Part shown: positions 13,813-20,231 of the stretch, piece by piece
How positions within the stretch are numbered: position 1 is the first letter of the stretch
How the letters are laid out: each line of letters begins with the position of its first letter
From: a virus
Length of the DNA stretch: 20,231 nt
Strand: one strand, 5' to 3'
Virus record (IMG/VR): IMGVR_UViG_3300021963_000824
Coordinates: 1-20,231 of that record
Position numbers and translations under genes: made by a program
The notes under the pieces: generated by a model
Told to the model about the DNA's origin: nothing
Database searches by the model: none
The model's input: the letters and a program-made list of their open reading frames with translations, nothing else

Positions 13813-15000
13813 TCAATCCAATCTCCTGCCGGTGTATTGATCGAACACTCCAACAACCTTAGCTGGTCCACGCTCTTCTCTGGGCTTGAAAGTCTCTAGG
13901 CCATAACGTATTGCATCCATGGCGTCACTCATATAGTGGTCTGGTACGTTTAGTATGTTGCCTTCTCGGTCTGTCTTCCACATATAGTTCTGATACGACT
14001 TACGCACGTTGTGTGAGCGTTTGGTGACACTTATCTGCTGACCTTGTACCCACTGAATACCCTGACTAACAGAACCCTGTCCTTTGTTAGCACCCACTAC
14101 GTTACAGCCATACTCTGTCATCTCGTCAATACTCTTAGGCTCGGCTGAGTCAGCTACACACATTACGTTAGGGTCTGGTTGATTCATTAGAGTATCGGCT
14201 ATCTGTCGGTTCTTCATACCAATCCTGTGGATAAGTTCGTCTATGATATAACCTCCGTTGTATGAGTAGATATCCACAAGGCAAGCCGGGTCTTGTGCAT
14301 AACCGAAGTCTAGTCCTCGACGTTCTAGCCGGGCTTCGTGTGGTAAATCAACGTCTAGCTTCCAACCTTTGTATATCTTACCCTCTACTTCACCAAGTTG
14401 TCCTTCACCATAGACAGTCCACCAGCTTTTGTTGTCTTTGCGTGATTCGATTGACGCTACGATGTTCGGATCAAGTGCTTCGTTGTCTTTGTATGTGAGA
14501 ATAATAAAGTCTACGTTGGGTTTGTCTTTGTAATCAGTATAAAACCAAAACTCTCTTGTTGGATTCCAGTCACCCCATATTACGTCTTTAGTACGCACTT
14601 CTAGCTGCTCAAAGGTCTCTTTGGGTATATTGTTTAGCTCATTGACAAATAGTCTGTCACGCCTAGGTCCACGCACCTTGTGGGGCATATCTAAACTGAA
14701 GAATTCTATCTTAGAACCTGTTTCGAATGTATAGGTGAAGTCTGATCTATTCCAGCTATCATCTTTGTAGTAGTTGTGCGATTGCATAATGTTAAGGAAA
14801 TCTCTAATTGCTCCACGCTTTAAGTGTGGTACAGACTCTGAAGTAATGCTAGTTAGTGTCGCAACCTTATCAGTCTGTGCTTGGTTTATTAGTATTTGAA
14901 TTATAGATATCGTCTTACTGGCTGACGTACCACCGGCAACTCCCCTAACCCTCTTGGTTAGACTCAATAACTTCTTGACTGCTGTAGTTGGCTGATACAT
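13813..15000 (-). CDS. terL: Terminase large subunit
   Basis: 395 aa; a DNA-packaging ATPase and nuclease that docks on the portal. The Walker A variant GGTSASKT (23-30) is characteristic of the PBSX/SPP1-type Terminase_3 group. Walker B is LFVNE (117-121). The adenine/coupling region has FFSLDMPHKVRGPRRDRL. The RNase H-like nuclease domain shows D231 in LDFGYAQDP, D284 in CVADSAEPKS, and D359/D362 in HYMSDAMDAIRYG. The length is a little short for the family but all motifs are present. The ATG at 15000 lies inside the terS 3' end (56-nt overlap), and the N-terminus TTAVKKLLSLTKRVRGVAGG is in keeping with the family, so the long overlap appears real. Confidence 0.93.
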   Translation of the reverse strand: MYQPTTAVKKLLSLTKRVRGVAGGTSASKTISIIQILINQAQTDKVATLTSITSESVPHLKRGAIRDFLNIMQSHNYYKDDSWNRSDFTYTFETGSKIEFFSLDMPHKVRGPRRDRLFVNELNNIPKETFEQLEVRTKDVIWGDWNPTREFWFYTDYKDKPNVDFIILTYKDNEALDPNIVASIESRKDNKSWWTVYGEGQLGEVEGKIYKGWKLDVDLPHEARLERRGLDFGYAQDPACLVDIYSYNGGYIIDELIHRIGMKNRQIADTLMNQPDPNVMCVADSAEPKSIDEMTEYGCNVVGANKGQGSVSQGIQWVQGQQISVTKRSHNVRKSYQNYMWKTDREGNILNVPDHYMSDAMDAIRYGLETFKPREERGPAKVVGVFDQYTGRRLD

Positions 15001-15367
15001 TTAGTTCCTTTATGTTTACGGCTTCAATTCCATTTAATATCGGTGTCGGTAAGTCTTTATCATTAGTCGTTATATCTTGCTTTGGCTTGAACTCTTTAGC
15101 TCTACGTTCTAAGTACCACTTGGCTGTATTGGTATCGCTTTCGATATCATCTACTACCTTACGCTTTGCTTTCAGCACTGGCTCATCTTGCCATTTAGCA
15201 ATCTCTTGTATAAAGTCTGGCTCTCTTTTGATATGATTATGCAGCGTTTTTACAGAAATGCCAGAGTATCTGCACGCTTCTTCTTGCGTTGCGCCGATTA
15301 AAAATATCATACGCAAATCTTTTAATACTTGTTCGGTCATAACCGTAGGTCTTCCTATCTTAGGCAT
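14945..15367 (-). CDS. terS: Terminase small subunit
   Basis: 140 aa. The N-terminus MPKIGRPTVMTEQVLKDLRM leads into a helix-turn-helix with TQEEACRYSGISVKTLHNHI (about residues 28-47), the DNA-recognition domain of small terminases. A helical oligomerisation region and a polar tail follow. It binds the packaging site and delivers the DNA to TerL. The ATG at 15367 has GGAAG upstream and overlaps the HNH stop by 8 nt. An upstream ATG at 15448 would add 27 residues inside the HNH frame and is rejected. Confidence 0.85.
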   Translation of the reverse strand: MPKIGRPTVMTEQVLKDLRMIFLIGATQEEACRYSGISVKTLHNHIKREPDFIQEIAKWQDEPVLKAKRKVVDDIESDTNTAKWYLERRAKEFKPKQDITTNDKDLPTPILNGIEAVNIKELNVSANYSSQEVIESNQEG

Positions 15368-15962
15368 ATTGTTCTTCCCATTTATTATGTTTGTGCATAT
15401 TACAGGGCGGGCATAGCCATTGAACATTTTTAATACTATGCAATCCACCCTTACTAACTGGCTTTATGTGGTCAAGGTGTTTACTTTCACTAATACTAGC
15501 ATTACAAATAACGCATTTATATTTTTGTACTTCCAGCATACTCTTTAATTCTTTTGCATTTATGGTGTTGTCTGAAATAGTTTTAAGCAATACTTTTCTT
15601 TTTCTAGATGCTTCTCTTTGTCTCAATTCCTTAAGTTCAATAGCTGTATTAGTACAAGATACGCAATTTCTTTTTTTATAAAGACCCTTTCCATCATACA
15701 GTAGGGATGATAGTATCTTATAACATATGCGACATTGTCTTTTATTATTTATGGCTTTAGCTAGACCGTGTAGTAGGTTTTTTGCAAATATGTATACTTC
15801 AATATCATAAAATCCTATATTATTTTTTAAGTATTTGTTTATGGTTTGAGATTTAATTTTGTTCTCAAATAAATAACCACTATCATATAGAAAGTTTCTT
15901 ACATTTCTATGCACGGCAGGATAAAGATATTGGGCTGGTGTCATTACGGTAGCTTTAGCCAT
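15360..15962 (-). CDS. HNH endonuclease, probable homing-type insertion
   Basis: 200 aa. The C-terminal HNH finger is clear: C150-x2-C153, the LDHI pair (D164, H165), N179, C184-x2-C187 and H190/H192. A second CxxC pair set lies at 77-80 and 100-103, probably another zinc site. The gene is visibly more AT-rich than its neighbours (for example 16 G/C in the 60 bases from 15541) and uses many AAA, ATA and TTA codons. It is joined to both neighbours by 8-nt overlaps of nearly the same sequence, ATGGCTAA and ATGCCTAA. HNH proteins next to terminase genes take part in cos packaging in HK97-type phages, so a packaging role is also possible. The base composition and junctions favour a mobile origin. 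Confidence 0.85.
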   Translation of the reverse strand: MAKATVMTPAQYLYPAVHRNVRNFLYDSGYLFENKIKSQTINKYLKNNIGFYDIEVYIFAKNLLHGLAKAINNKRQCRICYKILSSLLYDGKGLYKKRNCVSCTNTAIELKELRQREASRKRKVLLKTISDNTINAKELKSMLEVQKYKCVICNASISESKHLDHIKPVSKGGLHSIKNVQWLCPPCNMHKHNKWEEQYA

Positions 15963-16302
15963 TGTCTTTTGCCTTGTAATCACTTCTTTTATAATCAGTT
16001 GCTATGATACGCATTGTCTTCTGTTTGCTTAAGCCTATGTTCTGACCTAAGTTGAATATCTCGCTAGGCTGGATTGCTGTTGGTCGTAGGCTAGTAGGCT
16101 TGGTTGGGATGTCTTCTACATAGTATTGACCTTTGATAATTGCTGAGCGCATATCTGGATCTATGTTTTTGAGTGGTATATCTTTGACACCGGAGTTCTC
16201 ACTAGAGTTCTCTATTAAGCAGTAGAAGTCGTATAGCGCCTGTATAAAGCCGATTGGTAAGTCTTCGAAGCCTTCTGGTAAGTTGTTCATTTGGTTGTCC
16301 AT
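15955..16302 (-). CDS. First gene of the late operon, unknown function (115 aa)
   Basis: An acidic N-terminal half (MNNLPEGFEDLPIGFIQALY and NSSENSGVKDIPLKNIDPDM) is followed by a more basic end (LSKQKTMRIIATDYKRSDYK). NLGQNIGLSKQKTMRI has a helix-turn-helix flavour but is too short to call. It precedes terS and may be an accessory to packaging or regulation. No convincing Shine-Dalgarno precedes the first ATG; an in-frame ATG four codons in has GGA upstream and is an alternative start. Confidence 0.6.
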   Translation of the reverse strand: MDNQMNNLPEGFEDLPIGFIQALYDFYCLIENSSENSGVKDIPLKNIDPDMRSAIIKGQYYVEDIPTKPTSLRPTAIQPSEIFNLGQNIGLSKQKTMRIIATDYKRSDYKAKDNG

Positions 16303-16344
16303 TTGTTAGTTTATAGTTATATTATAACCTATTTACGAGTCGCA

Positions 16345-16377
16345 ACACAGAAACCCCGCATTGCTGCAGGGCTGTGT
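16345..16377 (-). promoter_or_regulatory. Leader hairpin upstream of the late operon
   Basis: ACACAG (16345-16350) pairs with CTGTGT (16372-16377). Inside it, CCC/GGG and GCA/TGC continue the stem with small bulges around a 4-nt loop (TTGC). It lies between the weak minus promoter and the first late gene, so it would be in the mRNA leader. No U-tract follows on either strand, so it is not an ordinary terminator. Confidence 0.5.
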
Positions 16378-16395
16378 GAATGAATTGGTAACTTC

Positions 16396-16425
16396 ACTAT
16401 AGCACATTATTATAATACAATGCAA
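16396..16425 (-). promoter_or_regulatory. Possible promoter for the late operon
   Basis: On the minus strand there is TTGCAT (16425-16420), 18 nt, then TATAGT (16401-16396). Each box is two mismatches or fewer from consensus. Transcription would start near 16389 and run through the leader hairpin. A second -10-like TATAAT (16326-16321) lies closer to the gene with no good -35. Confidence 0.4.
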
Positions 16426-16490
16426 TAGCTACCCTTACCCTTTATTAGCCTCCGGCCCCAGAGCTTCCTCGATCCTATTTGGTCTGGCTT

Positions 16491-16511
16491 CCCCTCCCTT
16501 GCTTCCCTCCC
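16491..16511 (-). other. G-quadruplex motif on the late-sense strand
   Basis: The minus strand reads GGGAGGG, AAGCAA, then GGGAGGGG: four runs of three or more G with loops of 1, 6 and 1 nt, which meets the classical quadruplex rule. It is part of a near-tandem duplication (GGGAGGGAAGC followed by GGGAGGGGAAGC). If late transcription starts at 16848, the motif would be present in the leader RNA. Confidence 0.6.
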
Positions 16512-16550
16512 TCCTAGCTATAAGCTTCTTAATGCAACTTATATGTTAGC

Positions 16551-16577
16551 CAGTCGGTCGGTCGCTTCGGTCGGCTG
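16551..16577 (+). other. Plus-strand-specific GU-rich hairpin
   Basis: As plus-strand RNA this 27-nt segment folds into an 11-bp stem with a 5-nt loop. The outer CAG/CUG is followed by CGGU/GUCG-type pairs with several G-U wobbles. On the minus strand the wobbles become A-C mismatches, so a hairpin is favoured only in plus-sense RNA. No gene on the plus strand is known to feed it; TTAATCTTAT follows, a weak U-tract. Confidence 0.35.
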
Positions 16578-16722
16578 TTAATCTTATCTACACATTGTTT
16601 TGATAGCTGTGTAGCAGTAACAGTCTGCTCCTTACTAAAACCCAATTCGTTCAGGTTGATTCAACGATACCACAGTTTTATTATATTTAGCAAGCCTTTT
16701 ATGCTACAGACTTTTTAACTAT

Positions 16723-16755
16723 AAAAAAACAACCCCAGTTAGGACTAGGGCTGTT
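16723..16755 (-). terminator. Rho-independent terminator, minus direction
   Basis: On the minus strand AACAGCCCTAGT (16755-16744) and ACTGGGGTTGTT (16739-16728) form a 12-bp stem with two G-U pairs and a CCTA loop. The T-run (16729-16723) continues from the stem's 3' end. In plus-sense RNA the two G-U pairs would be A-C mismatches, so the element is oriented. It lies about 95 nt downstream of the minus promoter start and 420 nt upstream of the first late gene. Confidence 0.75.
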
Positions 16756-16848
16756 TATTACCGCCGGAGGTACGCAGTCTGGTAAGGACTATTCTCTTGC
16801 CGGCTAGTACATGTAGGAATGCCTTACAGCGAACTGACTTTGTACTAT
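16723..16848 (-). ncRNA. Candidate structured small RNA or terminated late leader
   Basis: It is bounded by a good promoter and an oriented terminator, with no reading frame. Near the 5' end TAGTACA (16847-16841) and TGTACTA (16811-16805 area) can close a 7-bp stem around two small hairpins: CAG-UUCG-CUG, a UUCG tetraloop, and GUAAGG/CCUAC. Then GCCGG...CCGGC encloses UAGUC/GACUG, whose loop (CUUACCA) can pair with GGUAA immediately after the outer stem, giving a possible pseudoknot. No known RNA family is recognised. Either a free regulatory RNA or a leader that decides readthrough into the late genes, comparable in layout to lambda 6S RNA. Folding is by eye. Confidence 0.55.
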
Positions 16849-16854
16849 GCTACT

Positions 16855-16884
16855 AGTATATCATACCCGTTACGCTTTTGTCAA
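16855..16884 (-). promoter_or_regulatory. Strong sigma70 promoter for the structured RNA
   Basis: On the minus strand there is a perfect -35 TTGACA (16884-16879), 18 nt and -10 TATACT (16860-16855), with TGA just before the -10 (extended -10 type). The predicted start is near 16848. The octamer AAGCGTAA (minus strand of 16870-16877) lies in the spacer and recurs at both early promoters. An imperfect palindrome (GTCAATA ... TATTGTC, 16880-16897) overlaps the -35. Confidence 0.7.
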
Positions 16885-16908
16885 TACTTTTATTGTCTAC
16901 TAAAATGC

Positions 16909-16945
16909 CCGCAGGGGGTGAACAATCAATAGATCGAACCTGCGG
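16909..16945 (-). other. Hairpin whose loop is complementary to two early ribosome-binding sites
   Basis: CCGCAGG (16909-16915) and CCTGCGG (16939-16945) form a perfect 7-bp stem around a 23-nt loop. In minus-sense RNA the loop contains UUGUUCACCC. This is complementary over 10 nt to GGGTGAACAA in front of the 53-aa gene (17056-17065), and over 10 nt to GGTGAACAAT in front of the 84-aa gene (18020-18029). A minus transcript starting at the TATAAT at 16954-16959 would begin right at the stem. Alternatively it is a remnant of another early-gene leader. Confidence 0.4.
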
Positions 16946-16953
16946 ACAGAGCT

Positions 16954-16959
16954 ATTATA
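16954..16959 (-). promoter_or_regulatory. Possible -10 box upstream of the anti-RBS hairpin
   Basis: The minus strand has a perfect TATAAT, which would start transcription near 16947, at the 5' arm of the hairpin. No good -35 sits at 16-18 nt; the nearest TTGATT is 20 nt away. The region is AT-rich, so chance is likely enough that this is listed only as a possibility. Confidence 0.25.
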
Positions 16960-17011
16960 CTATATTAAAAGTGTACTAAAATCAACTATAAAAAATGTCT
17001 TATCAAAAGCC

Positions 17012-17040
17012 TTGACAAGCAATAAGCGTAAGCGTACAAT
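17012..17040 (+). promoter_or_regulatory. Early rightward promoter 1
   Basis: TTGACA (17012-17017), 17 nt and TACAAT (17035-17040). The -35 lies in the dyad CTTGACAAG. AAGCGTA occurs twice, at 17024 and 17030. Transcription should begin near 17047, giving a leader of about 20 nt with AAAGGGTG as ribosome-binding site. The module TTGACAAGC-N9-AAGCGTA is shared with the promoter at 17962-17990. Confidence 0.8.
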
Positions 17041-17066
17041 AGAGATATAAAGAAAGGGTGAACAAC

Positions 17067-17228
17067 ATGGGTGAGCAAACAACTAACATATCAAAGTTAA
17101 TATCGTGGTATAAGGCTGGATTGATATCCAAATATACCTTTGTAGATAAGCTGATTGACGCAATGGATGAAGCTGACTGCAAAGATAGCGTGGAGGCAAT
17201 TACTAATGGAAGAGTCGTTATATTCTGA
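17067..17228 (+). CDS. First early gene, 53-aa protein of unknown function
   Basis: The protein starts MGEQTTNISKLISWYKAGLI and continues SKYTFVDKLIDAMDEADCKD, then SVEAITNGRVVIF. It is amphipathic and helical with a hydrophobic end. The ATG follows GGGTGAACAAC and is the first start after the early promoter; its 3' end overlaps the nuclease gene by 23 nt, so translation is likely coupled. First-transcribed small phage proteins often act on host functions, but nothing here identifies a target. Confidence 0.7.
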   Translation: MGEQTTNISKLISWYKAGLISKYTFVDKLIDAMDEADCKDSVEAITNGRVVIF

Positions 17229-17952
17229 TAGTATCAAGCTAAAGTTTACACATAGTGGACATCGTTATCAAATAGATGCTGGTAGTGGTTGGAAGCCTGT
17301 GCAGGGCGTTACGACCATACTAGGCAAGGTAGTGGCTAAAGATGGTTTAGTGAATTGGGCTGCTAACCTAGCTGTGCAGGCTATGGTCGATGGTGCCACT
17401 CCAGACGAAGCCAAGAAAGCTCACATTAGAAAGAAAGACGCCGGTGCTGACGTTGGTTCAGAAGTTCATAACTACATTGAGAACTTTATAAAGACCGGCA
17501 AAGAGCTGAGCGTTACGCTAGAAGCTGAGCCGGCTGTGGAAGCCTTTCAAGAATGGCTAACGCAGCGTACCGTTAAGTTCTTACATAGTGAGATACCAGT
17601 CTACTCTAAGAAGTACGACTACTGCGGTACCTGCGACTTCGTGGCTGAGGTAGATGGCCGACGCTACATTGGCGATTGGAAGACTGCCGATCCAAAGAAA
17701 GAGTGGAAGAACAACAAGTACACCGGCAAGCTAACAGCCTACCCGGAGCATTTCATACAAGTTGCTGCTTACGATCAGGCGTTGTGTGAGATGGGTTACG
17801 ACTCGTTCGATGGACATATGATTGTCTACGTTACTAAGGGTGGAACACTACACACTTTTATAAACAAAGACGTCAATGCCAATAAAGGTGCTTGGCTTGG
17901 TGCATTGTTATTAAGCCGCCGGTTACAAACACTCGATAATTCAAGTTATTAA
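17206..17952 (+). CDS. PD-(D/E)XK nuclease, RecB/Cas4-type exonuclease
   Basis: 248 aa from the ATG at 17206. Motifs in order: GVTTILG (34-40), GSEVHNYIE (84-92) with His 88, HSEIPVY (127-133) with Glu 129, GTCDF with D144, GDWKT with D157 and K159 as the catalytic core, and FIQVAAYDQAL (183-193) with Q185 and Y189. This is the full RecB-family nuclease set as seen in Cas4 and phage exonucleases. It lacks the four cysteines of a Cas4 iron-sulfur cluster; the two cysteines at 140 and 143 are not enough. It probably takes part in DNA recombination or end-processing with the SSB-like protein downstream. GGAGG lies 9 nt before the ATG. A longer reading from 17155 lies in the preceding gene and is rejected. 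Confidence 0.85.
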   Translation: MEESLYSDSIKLKFTHSGHRYQIDAGSGWKPVQGVTTILGKVVAKDGLVNWAANLAVQAMVDGATPDEAKKAHIRKKDAGADVGSEVHNYIENFIKTGKELSVTLEAEPAVEAFQEWLTQRTVKFLHSEIPVYSKKYDYCGTCDFVAEVDGRRYIGDWKTADPKKEWKNNKYTGKLTAYPEHFIQVAAYDQALCEMGYDSFDGHMIVYVTKGGTLHTFINKDVNANKGAWLGALLLSRRLQTLDNSSY

Positions 17953-17961
17953 AAAAAAGAC

Positions 17962-17990
17962 TTGACAAGCTAATTATTTAAGCGTAACAT
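17962..17990 (+). promoter_or_regulatory. Early rightward promoter 2
   Basis: TTGACA (17962-17967), 17 nt and TAACAT (17985-17990). As in promoter 1, the -35 sits in CTTGACAAGC, and AAGCGTA starts at the same offset (18 nt after the first base of the -35). A TACAAT at 17997-18002 is closer to consensus as a -10 but is 29 nt from the -35. It lies in the 75-nt gap between the nuclease gene and the 84-aa gene. Confidence 0.65.
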
Positions 17991-18027
17991 CTAAAGTACA
18001 ATAATAAATTAATGAAAGAGGTGAACA

Positions 18028-18282
18028 ATGGATAAGATAGGATTTGACGATTGGATCAGCGACCAGGATGTAGAGTATGTTTTAGTGGCTAAGGTTAATG
18101 ACGAGGTTGCCTACCGGCGCATAACTTCAGACATTGGCAACATTGGCAAGGACTTGGAACACGCCGAAGAACAGGTTATGCAATTACTAGAGAGCCAATA
18201 CGTAGACGATAACTACGACTCAGAGCTTAAAGAAGAAAGGTTCTTAAACGAAGAGAGGTTTATAAGCAATGAGCGAGTATAA
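18028..18282 (+). CDS. Acidic early protein of unknown function (84 aa)
   Basis: The protein starts MDKIGFDDWISDQDVEYVLV and is strongly acidic, with a helical, Glu-rich second half (DLEHAEEQVMQLLESQYVDD, ending EERFLNEERFISNERV). The ATG follows AGAGGTGAACA, sharing GGTGAACAA with the first early gene. It is the first gene after promoter 2 and overlaps the SSB-like gene by 14 nt. A highly acidic small protein next to DNA-binding proteins could be a DNA mimic or an SSB partner, but that is unsupported speculation. No family recognised. Confidence 0.65.
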   Translation: MDKIGFDDWISDQDVEYVLVAKVNDEVAYRRITSDIGNIGKDLEHAEEQVMQLLESQYVDDNYDSELKEERFLNEERFISNERV

Positions 18283-18784
18283 GATAAGTAAAGTATCTGA
18301 CCAAGAACCTAAAAAGTACGATGGTCAGTACGGTACTACCTACTACATCAAAGTAATGCTCGATGGTCACGCTAAGCCGGTCGAGATCGGCAAGAAGTCG
18401 CCAGACGCTCTTAAAGCTGGTGATACAGTCTATGGAAGTATTACAGCTACCGAGTACCAGACTGATAAGTTTAAGGGTGAACAGAAACCTTTCGAGCAAG
18501 GCTCGTTTAATAAGGGCTTTAACAAGGTCGAAGACCCAGCCAAGCAAGATAGCATTATAAGACAATCTTCTATGAAGGCTTCTATTGACTTAGTAAGCAA
18601 TGGAAAGATTGACTTGGATGAGCTATACACTAGGGCTGACGACATTGTCGCTTGGGTCAAGAACCAGTTACTCGTGCTACCAGAGTCACTTAAAAAAGGT
18701 GAACCGCAAACAGACGAACCACCACTAACTGAGCCAGAGGAAGACTTTGATGAGGAGATTGACTTCGATGACATCAAGTTCTGA
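18269..18784 (+). CDS. SSB-like OB-fold protein with acidic C-terminal tail
   Basis: 171 aa. The N-terminal 60 residues have an OB-like run of beta strands (YKISKVSDQEPKKYDGQYGT, TYYIKVMLDGHAKPVEIG, GDTVYGSITATEY). A Lys/Gln/Gly-rich middle follows, then a helix, and the protein ends in an acidic tail (EEDFDEEIDFDDIKF). That tip recalls the DDDIPF end of bacterial SSB, which recruits partner proteins. Together with the RecB-type nuclease next door, a single-strand binding or recombination role is likely. The ATG has GAGAGG about 10 nt upstream. The fold is inferred by eye. Confidence 0.65.
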   Translation: MSEYKISKVSDQEPKKYDGQYGTTYYIKVMLDGHAKPVEIGKKSPDALKAGDTVYGSITATEYQTDKFKGEQKPFEQGSFNKGFNKVEDPAKQDSIIRQSSMKASIDLVSNGKIDLDELYTRADDIVAWVKNQLLVLPESLKKGEPQTDEPPLTEPEEDFDEEIDFDDIKF

Positions 18785-19130
18785 TATCTTCGCCGTACCA
18801 TCGACAATCGTAAAGGTTGAAACGATGAGTGATCGAACCCTCAAGTTGCGAGTCGATACGACACGTGAATTGCCAGCTGACGATGAAGCAAAGATTATGC
18901 ACCTAAGGGGAACTCAGGGCTGGTTCGTATACAGCGACAGAGAGGTCACAGAAAGCGATATACCAGAAGTTGGTATAGACCACGAGGTTAGTGAGAAAAG
19001 TCCGTCACAGCGCCTTAGAAACGTTGTGTGGCTACTCTGGGACAAGAACACCAGCAAGCAAAAGACTTTCGATATCTACTATCGTGAGGTTATGGATAAA
19101 ATAATAAACAAATTGAAGGAGGATTTATAA
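18768..19130 (+). CDS. Conserved phage protein of unknown function (120 aa)
   Basis: The order of strands STIVKVETMSDRTLKLRVDT, ELPADDEAKIMHLRGTQGWF, and a helical end with SPSQRLRNVVWLLWDKNTSK and FDIYYREVMDKIINKLKE matches a protein I have seen beside SSB or recombination genes in other phages, without a named function. The SPSQRLR-VLW part is the most typical. I chose the ATG at 18768, with GAGGAG upstream and a 17-nt overlap with the SSB-like gene. The ATG at 18825 (with AAAGG upstream) would remove the first beta strand; 18747 adds an unlikely Arg-rich start. Confidence 0.7.
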   Translation: MTSSSDIFAVPSTIVKVETMSDRTLKLRVDTTRELPADDEAKIMHLRGTQGWFVYSDREVTESDIPEVGIDHEVSEKSPSQRLRNVVWLLWDKNTSKQKTFDIYYREVMDKIINKLKEDL

Positions 19131-19369
19131 TGGCCGGTAATATAATTGGTGGAATCAAAGCAGGTAAAACAAACAAGAAACGTTATGGTAAGGACTTTTA
19201 CAAGTCAATCGGTGCTATGGGTGGATCTAAAAGCCGAGGTGGTGGATTCGCTAGTGATGTGGTTGGCGCAGACGGTCTAACCGGGCGTGAGCGATCAGTA
19301 ATTGTCGGCACTGCCGGCGGTATGATTAGCAAACGAGGTAAAGCAATTAAACTAAACCAAGGAGAATAA
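19130..19369 (+). CDS. Small basic Gly-rich protein, KGG-type
   Basis: 79 aa. It has GGIKAGKTNKKRYGKDFYKS, then SIGAMGGSKSRGGGFASDVV and VGTAGGMISKRGKAIK. The GxxGGxKxRGGGFA pattern and the overall composition resemble the KGG (stress-induced bacterial acidophilic repeat) proteins that are common in phages and may bind nucleic acids. The function is unproven. The ATG overlaps the previous stop (TAATG) and has GGAGG upstream. Confidence 0.6.
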   Translation: MAGNIIGGIKAGKTNKKRYGKDFYKSIGAMGGSKSRGGGFASDVVGADGLTGRERSVIVGTAGGMISKRGKAIKLNQGE

Positions 19370-19370
19370 A

Positions 19371-19703
19371 ATGGCAACATTTACACAAAAGAACACGGTT
19401 ATTGTACTAGCAATAGTAATAGTATTGGCTAACATAGGCTTCGCCCTGTATCAGAGCAATCAAATGCCTAAGCAGGTTAAGAAAAGCGTTGAAAGCTACT
19501 TTCAGGCACACAAGGCTGAGTTAAAAGGTGATAAGGGTATTCAGGGCGTTCCTGGCGAAACTGGTGCTGTCGGAGCTGCTGGAGCAGCAGGTCGTACTGG
19601 AGCAGTCGGAGCAAGTGGAGCAACTGGTAGTGCTGGAAAAGCTGGTCAAGATGGTATGAACGGTTGTACTTGGGTCGATGGTTACGGATGGTATTGTCCA
19701 TAA
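19371..19703 (+). CDS. Membrane-anchored collagen-like protein
   Basis: 110 aa. One membrane segment lies near the N-terminus (residues about 9-27, VIVLAIVIVLANIGFALY), then a short basic helical stalk. Sixteen Gly-X-Y triplets (53-98) include GDKGIQGVPGETG with one Pro. The end, CTWVDGYGWYCP, has two Cys that could close a small loop. It is likely a type II or signal-anchor protein with the collagen part outside the cell. It differs from the virion collagen-like protein, as it is in the early block and has an anchor. A role in the cell envelope or in excluding other phages is possible but only inferred. AAGGAG precedes the ATG. Confidence 0.75.
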   Translation: MATFTQKNTVIVLAIVIVLANIGFALYQSNQMPKQVKKSVESYFQAHKAELKGDKGIQGVPGETGAVGAAGAAGRTGAVGASGATGSAGKAGQDGMNGCTWVDGYGWYCP

Positions 19704-19725
19704 ATTAAACTAAAAGGAGGGTGAA

Positions 19726-19878
19726 GTGTATAAAATAATATGGGTAATAATATCAGTAACAGCAGTGCTGGTCTTACTATGGTTCTGCTGGTTGGTTTTT
19801 CAACTATCTGACTTGGTAGCGTGCAGTAATGTACCATTTGATGAGCTAACAGCACACTGTGTCGAGGTAATAAAATGA
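19726..19878 (+). CDS. Membrane microprotein, 50 aa, GTG start
   Basis: The GTG has GGAGG 5 nt upstream. The protein starts MYKIIWVIISVTAVLVLLWF and has one hydrophobic membrane helix (about 5-27, Trp/Cys-rich), followed by a short polar tail with two Cys (ACSNVPFDELTAHCVEVIK). The stop overlaps the next ATG (ATGA). A small membrane protein right after an anchored collagen-like protein could be its partner, or act on the envelope (for example holin-like or exclusion). None of that is shown. Confidence 0.65.
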   Translation: MYKIIWVIISVTAVLVLLWFCWLVFQLSDLVACSNVPFDELTAHCVEVIK

Positions 19879-19994
19879 AGGATTTAGAAAAAAAAGTAAT
19901 CAAGCTCTACAAGAAAAGAGCTAAGGCTCACAAGGTTCTCTTGGAAGTAGATATAGAACTAGACGACCTGATTAAGGTATTGGCAGGGCTATGA
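19875..19994 (+). CDS. Tiny charged helical protein, 39 aa
   Basis: MKDLEKKVIKLYKKRAKAHK is followed by VLLEVDIELDDLIKVLAGL: a Lys-rich helix then an acidic leucine-rich one, probably a helical hairpin or coiled coil. The ATG follows GAGGT with 6 nt spacing. Both ends are joined to neighbours by ATGA overlaps, which is the main support for its being a gene. Confidence 0.65.
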   Translation: MKDLEKKVIKLYKKRAKAHKVLLEVDIELDDLIKVLAGL

Positions 19995-20231
19995 CTTTCG
20001 AAACCAAAGACTCTGGCAAGCGTATCAACTACGACTCGGGGATGGTCAGGGACACTACAGATGGCAAAGCCCGTTACGACCTAATACCACTACCAATGCT
20101 TAAAAGGTTGGCAGAGCTATACGCTCGTGGTGCTGAGAAGTACGATAAAGACCTACCAATTAACATAGATAACTGGTATAATGTATGCACGACAATATGC
20201 AAGAAAAACCACTTAACCGATATAGATACCA
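19991..20231 (+). CDS. dATP/dGTP diphosphohydrolase-like protein (DUF5664), 3' end outside window
   Basis: The first 80 residues are visible. The pattern TKDSGKRINYDSGMVRDTTD, GKARYDLIPLPMLKRLAELY and ARGAEKYDKD is the start of the phage family annotated as dATP/dGTP diphosphohydrolase N-terminal domain (DUF5664). Members are thought to hydrolyse deoxynucleotide triphosphates; some work beside modified-base pathways. The usual xNW follows KY by about four residues, but here NW comes 12 residues after KY (INIDNWYNV), so an insertion may sit there. The ATG overlaps the previous stop (ATGA). Confidence 0.7.
   Translation, partial: MTFETKDSGKRINYDSGMVRDTTDGKARYDLIPLPMLKRLAELYARGAEKYDKDLPINIDNWYNVCTTICKKNHLTDIDT

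Follow-up and report, generated by a model that had tools for sequence, protein, structure and literature searches.

The divergent gap between the early and the late genes of an uncultivated phage very likely contains the gene of a stand-alone structured RNA of about 125 nt, which is known in kind (a phage small RNA gene) and new as a family. We consider it probable on the whole that this gene is switched together with the early genes and that its product acts in trans. Most of what is known about RNA regulators of phages comes from a handful of cultivated phages, and here a new RNA family with a cleanly conserved structure, linked to a putative early regulon via a promoter motif, comes from an uncultivated phage group. 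A candidate second RNA with a predicted regulon adjoins it, and both give sharp and cheap predictions (transcript ends; repression in trans via GGTGAAC), making RNA control of the early-to-late change directly testable.

The window analyzed here, to whose full length all window coordinates refer, is a 20,231-base IMG/VR virus fragment (IMGVR_UViG_3300021963_000824) from a tailed phage. Late genes run down the minus strand from 16302 (a 115-aa protein, HNH, TerS, TerL, portal and others), early genes up the plus strand from 17067 (among them genes for a 53-aa protein and a PD-(D/E)XK protein that resembles exonucleases), and the RNA sits between them. The TerL relatives from cultivated phages are less than 60% identical to the window TerL, and more distant relatives occur in MAGs; the phylum of one TerL-bearing MAG has genomes of mostly 0.5-1.1 Mb, which Patescibacteria would fit, a weak hint. 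The HNH/endonuclease VII-like gene at 15360-15983, between the first late gene and terS, was not seen at that place in the related contigs L003, L006, L007 and L013. A strong plus-strand terminator-like stem, CAGTCGGTCGGTCGCTTCGGTCGGCTG, lies at 16551-16577 in the gap between the RNA and the late genes, and no known plus-strand gene would require it.

Promoter, terminator and fold in the window

The elements of the RNA gene are as follows, the predicted RNA being read from a consensus sigma-70 promoter.

16879-16884, minus strand: -35 box TTGACA of the RNA promoter, conserved in L003, L013, L007 and L022
16855-16860, minus strand: -10 box TATACT with TGA in front, from the sequence and its conservation in relatives
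16722-16848, minus strand: structured small RNA, predicted start near 16848 (AUAG...), about 125 nt, from folding and a homologue match at E=1.7e-6
16805-16847, minus strand: P1 domain, its closing stem formed by 16847-16841 and 16811-16805; in four sequences every cell is paired (100%), with stem and inner hairpin changed on both sides
16828-16835, minus strand: AGUUCGCU, the UUCG hairpin within P1, conserved in relatives
16763-16804, minus strand: window-specific second domain GCCGG (16804-16800) / CCGGC (16767-16763), in place of the relatives' three-way junction
16758-16762, minus strand: GGUAA, possible pseudoknot partner of the loop CUUACCA (16786-16780), read from the sequence
16727-16756, minus strand: intrinsic terminator stem-loop of 13 pairs including two G-U, then a U-run, from sequence scan and folding

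The initial annotation had described TTGACA-N18-TATACT with TGA before the -10, about 126 nt free of a reading frame, and a terminator fully paired on the minus strand only, and we found all three. The promoter (16884-16855) has an 18-nt spacer and 11 of 12 consensus positions, is one of only two such sites within 14000-20231, and is kept in five sequences. No ORF of at least 40 aa overlaps 16722-16884, and folding of the plus strand of the terminator is broken at precisely the two G-U places. The stretch 16884-16722 thus has what marks a stand-alone bacterial sRNA gene, namely its own promoter, an intrinsic terminator and no such ORF. The transcript would fold into a 5' hairpin, P1, with a UUCG loop, followed by a structured body and the terminator.

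The folding energy of the window RNA is -38.6 kcal/mol (z = -2.5), a value equalled by 1 to 4 of 200 dinucleotide shuffles, and the fold is better than chance, though moderately and not strikingly so on energy alone. Two stems drawn by eye in the initial annotation, the closing stem UAGUACA/UGUACUA and GCCGG/CCGGC, recur in the minimum-energy structure, the latter around AGUC/GACU. The UUCG hairpin is missing from that structure when the window is folded alone, but the comparison supports it, AGUUCGCU being conserved with one compensatory change. All nine pairs of P1 are formed in each of four sequences (36 of 36 cells), with three pairs changed on both sides.

Homologues and the family fold

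Scanning viral contigs for TerL yielded 52 loci, three of which (L003, L013 and L007, the first two almost identical) span the gap and carry a homologous element, flanked by the exonuclease gene and the 115-aa late gene; the TerL of these element-bearing related contigs is 83-87% identical to that of the window. Several other near relatives stop short of the gap. A profile made from the three, with the window held out, found the window element at E=1.7e-6, promoter included, and nothing better than E 0.89 elsewhere in the window. L006, with a 90% identical TerL, crosses the gap without the structured RNA, and this phage type can therefore do without it.

In the three relatives the RNA starts AU(A/G)G, and P1 is formed by GGUAGA/UCUGCC or UAGUAGA/UCUGCUA around the UUCG hairpin. 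The 3' arm of P2 is followed by a U-run, and inside this terminator stem lie P3 and a three-way junction with P4 and P5, an unusual build. The complete fold has 100% of cells paired with seven pairs changed on both sides, which none of 500 shuffles matched; slid controls stayed far below it, at 0-1. A covariance model of the three led to a fourth member at L022 5404-5524 (21.6 bits, with E 0.03 over 0.67 Mb), which has its own TTGACA-17-TAATAT promoter and its end about 17 nt upstream of terS. When L022 was included, the model found a fifth member (28.4 bits, E 0.0019) in L105, a small contig carrying a tyrosine integrase, in a prophage-like leader context. Here a 10-bp outer helix closes the core, there is no U-run, P1 is ill-defined, and the core lies in the 5' leader that precedes a 57-aa ORF and a 230-aa gene. 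Upstream of this fifth copy, at L105 1590-1860 on the minus strand, is a long and seemingly structured leader.

The P1/P2/P3/P4/P5 fold with compensatory changes was found in all five relatives. Together they have 96.7% of cells paired and 23 of 39 pairs changed on both sides (a result reached by 0 of 500 shuffles), figures from an alignment that was fitted to the model and hence biased towards it, and few independent homologues stand behind the covariation. The unpaired junction bases AUCA, UGU, UUAAA(C/A)GG and CCAUC are conserved. It is clear from the comparison of the sequences that homology, promoter, P1 structure, terminator and shared promoter motif (see below) are real features of the element. 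The proposal of a stand-alone foldable RNA made in the initial annotation is upheld by homologues at the same place with their own conserved promoter and terminator, and the covariation in homologues by which it was to be judged is clear.

No known family had been recognised, and Rfam 15 was silent too for the window, L003, L006, L007, L013, L022 and L105, returning nothing or matches far below gathering (E 0.68 or worse). A BLAST search with the region for distant relatives in phage and plasmid records gave chance-size matches only. Pattern scans of viral contigs (5' motif; terminator; 5' motif with U-run) gave, beyond L003, L013 and L007/L058, matches within coding genes or lacking promoter and fold, and the small late protein used as bait for homologues had no match. 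Among several hundred genomes of the phylum of L105's MAG the covariance models found only that MAG; larger searches were strictly filtered, and weak members could escape them.

The window copy shares promoter, position, 5' end and P1 with the family and appears to lack the three-way junction core. The family fold of the second domain differs from the fold drawn for the window, the family covariance models gave the window second domain 6.2-7.1 bits, the same level as other window places, and the family junction motif has no match in the window. The aligned bases point to a change in the 5' P2 arm, from CCCCAG to CCGGCA, whereupon GCCGG/CCGGC and the local 13-bp terminator would have taken over. 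The three-way junction of the relatives is closed by their terminator stem itself, and in the window the body appears remodelled to GCCGG/CCGGC and a compact terminator hairpin, which forms independently of the rest of the fold. The second domain as drawn in the initial annotation may hold for the window phage, though the comparison lends it no support; a CUUACCA/GGUAA pseudoknot is possible from the window letters and has no equivalent in the relatives.

An operator-like motif, the late genes and alternative readings

The spacer of the RNA promoter contains an operator-like motif that recurs in early promoters.

16870-16877, minus strand: operator-like motif AAGCGTAA in the RNA promoter spacer, common to the early promoters at 17012 and 17962
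17012-17040, plus strand: early promoter TTGACA-17-TACAAT with the AAGCGTAA motif, from sequence scan and motif count
17962-17990, plus strand: second early promoter TTGACA-17-TAACAT with the AAGCGTAA motif, from motif count

In L003, L013 and L007 the same spacer reads GCTTATGC. The motif, a close variant or its reverse complement is present in the early promoters at 17012 and 17962 of the window, 2677, 6657 and 7553 of L058 and 3793 of L063. Copies of GC(A/G)TAAGC or AAGCGTAA lie at 16870, 17024 and 17980 in the window, 734 and 854 in L003, 2662, 7532 and 7953 in L058, and 3776 and 6128 in L063. In 53.8 kb of sequence from five phages, promoters contain 13 of the 26 copies of the motif where 0.42 would be expected, an enrichment that is overstated because the motif was defined from these same promoters and homologous promoters were counted repeatedly. 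Despite the overstated statistics, the co-occurrence of motif and promoter is plain. The initial annotation missed both this motif and the tiny RNA next door.

The simplest reading is that one putative common phage repressor acts on the RNA promoter and the early promoters. Because the motif is common to them, we regard the RNA as quite likely a non-coding unit of the early regulon, probably turned on with the early genes through relief from that repressor. We infer transcription, the common repressor and the action in trans; the last, through binding of a protein or an RNA, we consider somewhat more probable than not. A search for base-pairing targets of the structured RNA among gene-start regions, or with the tiny RNA, gave none above background.

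The initial annotation had left the choice between a trans regulator and an element deciding readthrough into the structural genes. Two further features bear on this choice.

16352-16373, minus strand: second terminator-like stem between the RNA and the late genes, from sequence scan
16321-16326, minus strand: late -10 box TATAAT directly before the first late gene (ATG at 16302), conserved in five contigs

Since the first late gene has its own -10 and the second stem lies between, the RNA would not be required for bringing transcripts to the late genes. These features, together with the independent compact terminator, argue against a readthrough switch, and of the two options the trans regulator is the better supported.

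The most serious alternative is a conditional terminator, an attenuator or riboswitch-like leader in which a ligand or protein stabilizing the junction would halt transcription ahead of the late genes, with readthrough otherwise. What keeps it alive is that junction and terminator stem are coupled in the relatives, where P2 doubles as closing stem and terminator (L003, L013, L007 and L022), and that the L105 core, which lacks a U-run, lies in the leader of a small ORF and the 230-aa gene. The conserved unpaired junction bases resemble a putative binding site, the L022 copy ends close to terS, and L007 has an alternative short terminator hairpin overlapping P2/P3; this hairpin, however, is not conserved by eye in L003, L013 or L022. 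With the conserved -10 of the first late gene, the stem 16373-16352, a distance of 420 nt between RNA and late gene and a window terminator that forms without the junction, we find such a terminator rather unlikely. Riboswitch-type or protein-binding multi-helix leaders are alike in having a stem-closed, terminator-coupled three-way junction with conserved unpaired bases, but the new RNA has no Rfam match to them, a late promoter of its own follows downstream, and no conserved antiterminator was found.

Far less probable is a packaging RNA or terminase partner in the manner of the phi29 pRNA. The length of about 120 nt, the three-way junction and the position immediately before the terminase module in the window, L003, L013, L007 and L022 would suit it. 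Packaging motors of the phi29 type, however, work without TerS, and this phage encodes both a small and a large terminase; moreover the L105 copy has a different context, L006 has the same terminase and no RNA, and consistent loop-loop pairing was not seen by eye. That the fold arose by chance in non-coding DNA, or that the stretch works as DNA (for example as a packaging site), would agree with the moderately low folding energy but is hardly credible, as the compensatory changes speak strongly against it, as do the conserved promoter and U-run of the homologues.

The comparison with lambda 6S RNA and HK022 put RNA made in the initial annotation is borne out by no tested feature, and neither of these nor pRNA was adopted as an identity, no defining feature being present. 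HK022 put acts in cis on RNA polymerase and gives readthrough of downstream terminators, and it counts against this likeness that the window element itself ends at a terminator. Lambda 6S, OOP and PreS and VpdS of phage VP882, whose functions are described in PMC12197685, resemble the RNA preferred here, an early-switched small RNA acting in trans, as small non-coding RNA genes in phage regulatory regions with their own promoter and terminator; no Rfam relationship to it was found for them, and the conserved junction fold and the early-promoter motif are features of the new family.

A candidate tiny hairpin RNA beside the structured RNA

Just upstream of the structured RNA, and adjoining it, lies a candidate for a second RNA, with a T-rich tail.

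16895-16959, minus strand: candidate tiny RNA with -10 TATAAT (16959-16954), hairpin GUCCGCAGG..CCUGCGGGC and a weak U-run, kept in five contigs
16916-16925, minus strand: its loop UUGUUCACCC, complementary to early ribosome-binding sites
17056-17069, plus strand: GGGTGAACAACATG region at the first early gene start, complementary to the loop
18019-18030, plus strand: AGGTGAACAATG, start region of an 84-aa early gene, complementary to the loop

It is present in the window and at L003 760-838, L013 1954-2032, L007 4316-4395 and L006 4700-4785, with every pair kept and two changed on both sides. Base complementarity links the loop UUGUUCACCC with the GGGTGAAC ribosome-binding sites of early genes, although the loop also resembles the anti-Shine-Dalgarno tail of 16S rRNA, so that any strong ribosome-binding site matches it partly. 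Starts of the type G(A/G)GTGAAC-ATG, complementary to the loop, occur in two early genes of the window, three of L058, four of L063 and two of L013, mostly the first genes after motif promoters, and in no late gene save one chance 3-codon frame in L006. In the window alone the count is two of eight early against none of 22 late genes (P 0.06). The loop complementarity alone stands out; whole-RNA duplex energies do not. An extra match of the anti-RBS pattern scan, in L064, falls inside a gene and was dropped.

These matches make the tiny RNA a candidate shared translational shut-off RNA for early genes. Tentatively, the early/late boundary could be a hub of two RNAs, the operator-controlled RNA of the new family, expressed with the early genes, and a 45-nt hairpin RNA whose loop, matching a G[A/G]GTGAAC tag at the ribosome-binding site of the first gene in operator-controlled early transcripts, would shut off early translation as a set. 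The c4 RNA of P1/P7 and the sar RNA of P22 block translation by pairing near a ribosome-binding site, c4 probably via loops (PMC12197685). The tiny RNA is alike as a small phage RNA that would pair near a ribosome-binding site; c4 and sar have a single ant mRNA as target, whereas the tiny RNA would address several early genes via their common tag. T4 RegA represses the translation start of a set of early mRNAs (PMC3014915), which is what we propose for the tiny RNA, with the difference that RegA is a protein.

A late-strand gene of 96 to 133 aa, missing from the window and L003, has a leader with two AATTAGCGT-type repeats at L013 2200-2390, L007 4860-5040 (L058 8200-8290) and L063 6270-6450. 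Opposite this leader a promoter with 12/12 consensus positions (TTGACA-17-TATAAT) precedes a terminator-like stem, an arrangement that looks like a cis-antisense RNA gene whose -35 overlaps the Shine-Dalgarno sequence of the 96- to 133-aa gene.
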